Shown here in pieces: positions 35,041 to 35,560 of a DNA stretch of 35,560 nucleotides. The notes under the pieces were generated by a model. That model was not told the DNA's origin. It saw nothing but the letters and a program-made list of their open reading frames with translations, and searched no databases. Position numbers and translations under genes: made by a program. Source of the stretch: Anaerolineales bacterium (GTDB lineage: Bacteria; Chloroflexota; Anaerolineae; Anaerolineales; Villigracilaceae); the NCBI GenBank assembly GCA_014379595.1, contig JACMLM010000038.1:1-35560 (forward strand), written 5' to 3'. Within the stretch, counting starts at the first letter, position 1, and every line of letters begins with the position of its first letter.

Positions 35041-35073
35041 AACAAAACTGCCTCCTGTAAACCAGAAGGCAGT
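35041..35073 (-). terminator. Intrinsic terminator of the SWIM protein gene
   Basis: Stem ACTGCCT (35047-35053) with AGGCAGT (35067-35073), extended by CTG/CAG after one mismatch. On the minus strand it is followed by TTTTGTTTTTATT. It lies 23 bases past the stop at 35096. Confidence 0.85.
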
Positions 35074-35095
35074 CTATATATTCAATTTTAGTTAA

Positions 35096-35338
35096 TTAAG
35101 CTTCTACTGTTTCAGAAATCATATCCTTGAGAAGAATCTCAAGCGCCATTGAGTGGCCGCAACGTTTATGGGTGATGAAAAATTCGCAATCGCAGTTAAA
35201 AACTCCATTATTATACGAAACGCGGTGTTCGCTATTATCCCCATGGAAATCAAGATCAAACTGATTGAAGTGGAAGCGGTGTCTATCCTCAGCATAACGT
35301 TTTGCTTTTTCTACCTTGCCTATTAATCCAGAATCCAT
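35096..35338 (-). CDS. Small SWIM-type zinc-finger protein
   Basis: An 80-residue protein that is nearly all one SWIM zinc finger. The ligands follow the CxC-x8-CxH pattern: Cys49, Cys51, Cys60 and His62, in CDCEFFITHKRCGHSMAL. SWIM domains bind DNA or proteins and usually sit inside larger SWI2/SNF2 or MULE-type proteins, so a free-standing one is less common. AAGGAG (35348-35353, minus) is nine bases before the ATG. It has its own promoter (35462-35490), an intrinsic terminator in the leader (35365-35399) and another after the gene, so it appears to be a single-gene unit under attenuation-like control. Function unknown. Confidence 0.85.
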   Translation of the reverse strand: MDSGLIGKVEKAKRYAEDRHRFHFNQFDLDFHGDNSEHRVSYNNGVFNCDCEFFITHKRCGHSMALEILLKDMISETVEA

Positions 35339-35364
35339 TGTTTAAGTCTCCTTTTTTGAGGGAA

Positions 35365-35399
35365 TAAAAAAAAGACACGCGGGAATAATCGCGTGTCTT
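35365..35399 (-). terminator. Intrinsic terminator inside the SWIM gene leader
   Basis: A perfect 10-bp stem AAGACACGCG (35372-35381) with CGCGTGTCTT (35390-35399), eight-base loop, followed on the minus strand by a run of T. It ends only about 12 bases before the Shine-Dalgarno of the SWIM gene, where a leader attenuator would be placed. Confidence 0.85.
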
Positions 35400-35401
35400 G
35401 G

Positions 35402-35437
35402 TCAACCAGATTGTGTATCTCCATGAAATAAGCGCAT
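35402..35437 (-). CDS. Possible 11-residue leader peptide
   Basis: ATG 35435-35437 with AGAGG (35447-35451) nine bases upstream reads MRLFHGDTQSG and stops at TGA 35402-35404, three bases before the terminator stem. It starts about 17 bases from the predicted transcription start. The codons show no run of one amino acid, so a classical amino-acid attenuator is not obvious. It could be chance; the spacing and position are the only support. Confidence 0.35.
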   Translation of the reverse strand: MRLFHGDTQSG

Positions 35438-35461
35438 GTGGCGTTACCTCTTATAAAATCG

Positions 35462-35490
35462 AGTATAGTACTTTTGAAAGTGCGAGTCAA
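35462..35490 (-). promoter_or_regulatory. Strong promoter upstream of the SWIM leader
   Basis: On the minus strand, -35 TTGACT (35485-35490), a 17-base spacer and -10 TATACT (35462-35467). The predicted start is near A 35454, about 90 bases before the end of the leader terminator. Confidence 0.8.
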
Positions 35491-35560
35491 TAACAAAATA
35501 AGATGATTCACATTTTCGTATGGGAATTGTAGGGTTAAACATCTATACGCATCATACTTA

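Follow-up and report, generated by a model that had tools for sequence, protein, structure and literature searches.

A number of bacterial leaders that couple a short upstream ORF (uORF) to the expression of the following gene have been described. In E. coli pyrBI, the leader ORF overlaps an intrinsic terminator and a ribosome close behind the polymerase suppresses termination; PMC4824070 places this terminator within a leader-peptide gene of 135 bp and describes it as dependent on transcription pause sites. The same source describes E. coli constructs in which a translated stop codon placed 5 bp before an intrinsic terminator lowers termination from about 90% to less than 10%, a drop that was abolished by removing or uncoupling translation, and it notes that terminators located no more than 100 bp into a coding region still function well, since ribosomes trail behind (PMC4824070). 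In the case of the actinobacterial whiB7/wblC leaders, a short uORF and an intrinsic terminator conserved in actinomycetes precede a small regulator, according to PMC11550727; in these leaders the terminator is favoured by translation of the uORF, and stress leads to the formation of an antiterminator. A uORF followed by a premature terminator is also described for rli53-lmo0919, where an antiterminator switch is reported (PMC11550727), and for the leaders of the antibiotic-inducible vmlR and bmrB (BmrC/BmrD). Finally, for a small DUF1127 gene of Sinorhizobium, it was proposed that a uORF reports ribosome availability and that the ribosome-binding site can pair with early codons; the account given in PMC12218461 describes no working intrinsic terminator and a probable dependence on Rho.

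The window analysed here is the entire contig JACMLM010000038.1 (35,560 nt). Near its end, on the minus strand, some 150 bases carry, in this order, TTGACT-17-TATACT, GAGGT, an 11-codon ORF (the mini-ORF, shorter than the size limit of the program-made ORF list), a terminator, GGAG and the ATG of the gene for a small zinc-finger protein, SWIM (Table 1). All these elements lie where a preliminary description of this DNA had placed them. A terminator-like site past SWIM suggests a single-gene unit, and the genes flanking SWIM differ among the 13 loci inspected, so that it does not look like a member of a fixed operon. An overlapping contig of the same genome (C69, locus L230) extends the end of the window's contig upstream; the gene found there upstream of SWIM is an ORF of 140 aa, oriented like SWIM.

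Table 1. Features of the SWIM locus in the window
Feature	Position	Strand	Basis or remark
Operator-like element CTACAATTCCCATACGA, upstream of promoter	35516..35532	minus	position kept in similar leaders
-35 hexamer TTGACT	35485..35490	minus	TTGAC[TA] in 47/47 closely similar leaders
Spacer between -35 and -10	17 nt	minus	sequence
-10 hexamer TATACT	35462..35467	minus	kept in 47/47 closely similar leaders
Possible hairpin GAGGTAACGC / GCGcTTATTTC	35425..35450	minus	would cover mini-ORF Shine-Dalgarno, AUG in loop
Shine-Dalgarno of mini-ORF, GAGGT	35446..35450	minus	sequence and alignment
Mini-ORF MRLFHGDTQSG, 11 codons and TGA	35402..35437 (ATG at 35437, TGA at 35404-35402)	minus	frame and residue conservation
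Intrinsic terminator stem-loop AAGACACGCG / CGCGTGTCTT	35372..35399	minus	10 bp, 8-nt loop
Terminator T-run, eight T	35366..35373	minus	first two T shared with stem
Shine-Dalgarno of SWIM, GGAG	35348..35351	minus	AAAGGAG conserved in 46 aligned leaders
SWIM zinc-finger protein gene, 80 aa	35096..35338 (ATG at 35338)	minus	
Terminator-like site past SWIM	35045..35075	minus	hints at single-gene unit

SWIM is widespread: a single-sequence search of the window's own genome and 100 relatives finds orthologues in 88 of these 101, and profile searches match 247/298 genomes of the class and 196/251 sampled genomes of the phylum. The preliminary description had pointed to the leaders of such orthologues as the place to look for conservation, and there the promoter and the terminator are indeed kept. 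A strong terminator at most 200 nt from the SWIM start that has a good promoter at most 140 nt before it is present in 79 of 113 upstream regions (114 distinct ones were extracted, mostly from the window's order, and 113 were long enough) and in 42 of 80 further loci from 74 Chloroflexota families, with five extra from the window's family and three others, all chosen among the best-scoring matches listed in the class and phylum profile searches. None of 148 control ORFs (at least 150 aa, from up to 50 related loci) has this pair. The terminator alone is found in 94/113 and 56/80 cases, against 21/148 controls. The script is strict, and several of the regions that it counts as lacking the architecture have weaker promoters or longer spacing, while others are truly without the leader. 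Single consensus matches are common, and the 461 bases hold one promoter-like match where 1.3 are expected by chance: the lone promoter match is at chance level. Its combination with the terminator, conserved across families and absent from all the controls, is not what chance would give, and a fortuitous juxtaposition of promoter-like and terminator-like sequence can for practical purposes be dismissed.

The switch is not universal. No terminator reaches the threshold in 24 of the 80 phylum-wide loci, and in eight loci (L074, L077-L081, L180 and L218) a promoter stands directly ahead of SWIM with no terminator between them; in such places the switch is dispensable. Three loci (L066, L070 and L203) have a short leader and no terminator. 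In all these named loci the leader has been lost or was never gained, and the promoters read TAGACT, TGGACT or TTGACA and lie near the Shine-Dalgarno of SWIM.

Where the terminator is present, no promoter was found behind it: over 151 leaders the mean best score in that region is 6.77, against 7.10 in shuffled sequences, and the main promoter averages 11.90 in the same comparison. SWIM, as far as its sequence tells, is then without a promoter of its own. This bears on the suggestion, made in the preliminary description, that a small RNA about 90 nt long is encoded here and lies ahead of the gene by coincidence. An RNA of that size is expected as the terminated product, so this part of the suggestion may hold, and the unit, with its promoter, Shine-Dalgarno, ORF and terminator, is complete in itself. 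It is nevertheless very improbable that it is a stand-alone gene for a small RNA or mini-protein, with SWIM expressed by constant and unregulated leak-through: the unit stays ahead of SWIM across families though the neighbours differ, what its ORF keeps is mainly the initial residues and the place where it ends, not a peptide sequence, SWIM would be left with no other promoter, and some genomes devoid of the leader have a promoter directly ahead of SWIM.

A further element, operator-like in character, lies upstream of the promoter. Among the 47 closely similar leaders, which come nearly all from the window's genus, CCATACGA occurs in 37, no further than 110 nt upstream from where the -10 hexamer ends, and in 27 of these 37 it stands at exactly -62. 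The genomes G001, G021 and G026 have one match each, every one at the SWIM promoter, and the backward control pattern has 1, 0 and 2; in the window's own genome there are four matches, namely the one in the SWIM leader, its copy where the other contig overlaps and two that are inexact, and three for the control. The genome-wide counts are thus not above the backward control, and it is the position of CTACAATTCCCATACGA, rather than the number of matches, that suggests an operator.

The mini-ORF looks translated. In 43 aligned leaders, A11, G12 and G13 of its Shine-Dalgarno are invariant, and G10 and T14 nearly so. When the starts are picked by codon and Shine-Dalgarno alone, and the 34 of 145 leaders passing for promoter, terminator and spacing that have no start with a Shine-Dalgarno at the threshold are set aside, the frame is open up to the terminator stem in 107/111 leaders, against 60/111 and 83/111 for the two shifted frames. 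The same holds for the phylum-wide loci (34/36, against 14/36 and 25/36 shifted, that is 39/72; p = 9e-6) and for the window's order minus the closely similar group (28/30, against 33/60 shifted; p = 2e-4), in Fisher tests that treat related loci as independent. Residue 3 is valine in 32/88 mini-ORFs, against 23/426 at residues 5-9, and its codons vary in the third base (GTA 12, GTG 11, GTT 8, GTC 1); residue 2 is arginine in 28/88, against 31/426 at comparison positions. Starts of the type MR[VIL] occur in 17/90 leaders, which belong to the window's order, its class and further classes of Chloroflexota. Within the closely similar group, third-position variation is greatest in codons 2, 3 and 5, and third positions of codons 4 and 6 do not vary. 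Conservation does not extend over the entire peptide; it is mainly the first residues and the end point that are kept.

This end point lies close to the terminator. In the window, the stop codon ends 2 nt ahead of the stem and 4 nt ahead of its first G. Among the loci analysed, L055 and L056 are a single contig read in both directions. In a set of 90 leaders, which includes one of the 47 closely similar ones and also two leaders of their genus, L032 and L052, the first base of the stop falls between -12 and +6 nt of the stem's first G/C in 46 and beyond that in 33. It falls earlier in 11, a count that retains several ORFs (for example L118, L120, L140, L150 and L155) whose starts were probably wrongly chosen by the script. 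The stop is therefore near, inside or beyond the stem in 79/90; by another count, 41 stops lie 1-12 nt before the stem, 17 lie 0-14 nt within it and 21 further on. At the other end of the mini-ORF, some lineages are nearly leaderless, with the ATG just 6-11 nt past the -10 hexamer. In a group of GC-rich lineages (L060, L061, L063-L065, L072, L073, L075 and L199) this distance is 6-10 nt, the mini-ORFs start mostly with MDV or MGV, and several contain a hairpin of the type GGATG..CATCC.

The terminator itself has a folding energy of -15.7 kcal/mol, and its T-run ends about 70 nt past the start codon of the mini-ORF. Both partners have changed in three of its pairs. For one pair this is seen in 17 of 43 sequences, and one reads G-C in 23, U-A in 9 and C-G in 8. 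Taking the terminator together with the possible hairpin at the mini-ORF start, there are 20 doubly changed cells against 8.0 in shuffles; the number of doubly changed pairs over both helices (3, against a shuffled mean of 3.1) shows no excess. By eye, the T-run could also pair with the A-rich region of the SWIM Shine-Dalgarno in the read-through RNA (35373-35348, minus strand).

The explanation that we favour, and hold to be somewhat better than an even bet, is that the leader is a cis-acting leader-peptide attenuator of SWIM whose terminator is masked, and read-through thereby allowed, by a ribosome that has come to the end of the mini-ORF. One promoter would drive transcription of the mini-ORF, and by default RNA polymerase would halt at the terminator, giving an RNA of about 90 nt. 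If a ribosome stood at the mini-ORF end when the terminator is made, its footprint would lie over the 5' arm of the stem, the hairpin would be blocked and the polymerase would proceed into SWIM. Given the size of its footprint, a ribosome positioned on the stop codon would extend over most of this arm. Termination would be the usual outcome of such a race, and read-through would need a ribosome close behind the polymerase or held at the mini-ORF end, so that SWIM expression would report how closely, or for how long, ribosomes trail the polymerase on the leader. We infer the masking step, its direction (translation leading to read-through) and its modulation by a signal. Many leaders have their stop next to the stem or within it, so that normal translation should interfere with the terminator. 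Some points weigh against this reading: for masking to occur, the leader would need a pause or a slow polymerase, and as an attenuator it has to contend with the 34/145 leaders without a start and Shine-Dalgarno and with the 11/90 in which the chosen ORF stops short.

The opposite direction is conceivable, as in whiB7: translation of the mini-ORF would permit the terminator, and stalled or absent ribosomes would free an antiterminator, so that SWIM would be induced by translation stress. The parts list, a uORF and an intrinsic terminator ahead of a small regulator, is that of the whiB7/wblC leaders, and a weak hairpin between Shine-Dalgarno and AUG in some families (11 of 63 loci in the best tenth) could couple ribosome binding to folding. 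This model, however, needs an RNA partner for one arm of the terminator, and neither arm pairs above shuffles. Pairing of the 5' arm with upstream RNA is weaker than in shuffles (mean z over 63 loci +0.39, s.e. 0.09), that of the 3' arm is no better than in shuffles (mean z over 90 leaders -0.11, s.e. 0.11), and truncated leaders give no alternative consensus fold. No alternative pairing that would disrupt the terminator was thus detected, in agreement with the preliminary description, which had found no convincing antiterminator, and an antiterminator switch was rejected on these duplex tests and consensus folds. The result agrees with the direction in which translation means read-through, and the stops beside or within the stem, with which normal translation should disturb the terminator, also speak against the whiB7-type model, which we consider unlikely.

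The hairpin that could form over the start of the mini-ORF deserves a separate comment. A 5-bp stem ATAAG/CTTAT around the Shine-Dalgarno, noted in the preliminary description, did not hold up in the alignment: the 46 aligned similar leaders mostly read ATCGAGG there. Most of these 46 can form the stem GAGGTAACGC/GCGcTTATTTC, and 90.2% of its cells are paired (43 leaders), with no pair changed on both sides; the RNAalifold consensus does not predict it. In the window's genus an enclosing pair around the start is likely in 74/88 leaders, a count made without a null model. Across 63 loci the start-codon hairpin has a mean z of -0.33 (s.e. 0.16), and it is attractive in some (L054, L105, L110, L114 and L127). 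With no double-sided changes, no RNAalifold support and a weak signal across families, it was rejected as a conserved core of the leader; within the genus and for a small number of families a hairpin over the Shine-Dalgarno is plausible, but as a phylum-wide feature it is unsupported.

A riboswitch, which the preliminary description had named beside an attenuator, was likewise rejected. At the gathering cut-off, Rfam finds only a tRNA in the window and no match of the leader; relaxed thresholds give sub-threshold matches only (window positions 35300-35560, and ten loci including L001, the window's own), and no consensus structure was found upstream of the terminator. The attenuator fares better, with a conserved promoter, mini-ORF and terminator. 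A covariance model of the leader (R1) has one convincing match in the window's own genome, at SWIM (1.9e-16), in a scan in which 150 of 1583 candidates were scored; the other matches are the terminator read antisense (E 0.25) and sites at E 1.25 or worse. The match at E 1.25, beside a gene that we take to encode a succinyl-CoA synthetase, was judged on reading the site to be due to chance. R1 detects most divergent leaders weakly.

SWIM itself carries the ligands of the CxCxnCxH type, here CxCx8CxH (C49, C51, C60 and H62), invariant in 67 aligned orthologues, as are M1, K8, K11, Y15, A16 and G33. It scores below the cut-off of Pfam SWIM PF04434 (13.9 bits against 19.6, E 0.04), and NCBIfam gives a weak partial match to a Snf2 helicase model and nothing else. 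The AlphaFold2 model is compact and confident (mean pLDDT 91.7); a PDB search for fold relatives returned 183 matches at E 10 and none at 0.001, and a PDB sequence search found no relative.

Simple masking by a ribosome would not predict one feature of the terminators. The triplets CAC (5' arm) and GTG (3' arm) occur together in 40/56 phylum-wide SWIM terminators, against 7/76 control terminators, which were taken at a score cut of 17 (15 for the SWIM terminators) from fewer lineages and related loci. In the terminators of L149-L228, CAC/GTG is kept in most families sampled, while loop and inner stem vary. One possibility is that a protein recognises this hairpin. Such a protein, possibly SWIM, would bind the hairpin or the leader and shift termination, the mini-ORF setting the basal coupling; the predicted compact structure of SWIM, its conserved zinc-ligand residues and the single convincing genomic copy of the leader model, at SWIM, are consistent with this. 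On the other side, the SWIM fold has no solved relative and the binding is putative, and in six loci (L161, L169, L189, L211, L214 and L216) CAC is the last codon ahead of a mini-ORF stop within the stem, so that the signature may be partly coding. As CACTAG or CACTGA is seen in only 10/56 phylum-wide terminators (CACGC in 8/56), the stop codon accounts for part of the signature only. All considered, we regard control by a protein as doubtful. A bolder and speculative idea, which we put forward as a minority view, is that in a phylum-wide family of attenuators the mini-ORF and a sequence-specific CAC/GTG hairpin form a sensor of ribosome-polymerase coupling, read by and perhaps bound by SWIM. 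In Chloroflexota, SWIM would then take the place of a translation-stress regulator like WhiB7, which is an iron-sulphur cluster-binding protein.

In the collection of papers that we searched, we found none linking the SWIM domain with Chloroflexota, Chloroflexi or Dehalococcoides, and none on leader-peptide attenuation in Chloroflexus. SWIM is uncharacterised in Chloroflexota, and its leader is common to the window's order and other lineages of the phylum. If the ribosome-masking mechanism holds, the leader would be a simple and ancient translation sensor without an antiterminator, an entry point to a conserved protein of uncharacterised role and a natural test system for transcription-translation coupling beyond the usual model bacteria.

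When the locus is set against the described systems, the rli53-lmo0919, vmlR and bmrB leaders differ from it in controlling resistance genes, a function not known for SWIM, and lmo0919 in having its antiterminator switch. The Sinorhizobium DUF1127 leader, with its probable Rho dependence, lacks the intrinsic terminator found here, and the whiB7/wblC leaders form an antiterminator under stress where none was detected at SWIM. To our knowledge, the pyrBI attenuator needs no antiterminator. It differs in the size and placement of its leader-peptide gene, in its dependence on pause sites and in the regulated gene, which is unrelated to SWIM; the SWIM-leader ORF is usually about 8-20 codons long, with a stop that frequently lies next to the stem or within it. 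With these differences, the traits of an attenuator are present, namely a short, translated-looking ORF and a conserved intrinsic terminator between it and SWIM, and so are those of the pyrBI type, an ORF that in most leaders ends at or runs into the stem and no detected antiterminator. Judged by its anatomy, the SWIM leader would work most like that of pyrBI, while sharing its parts list with whiB7/wblC, and would be a hitherto undescribed member of the leader-peptide attenuators.
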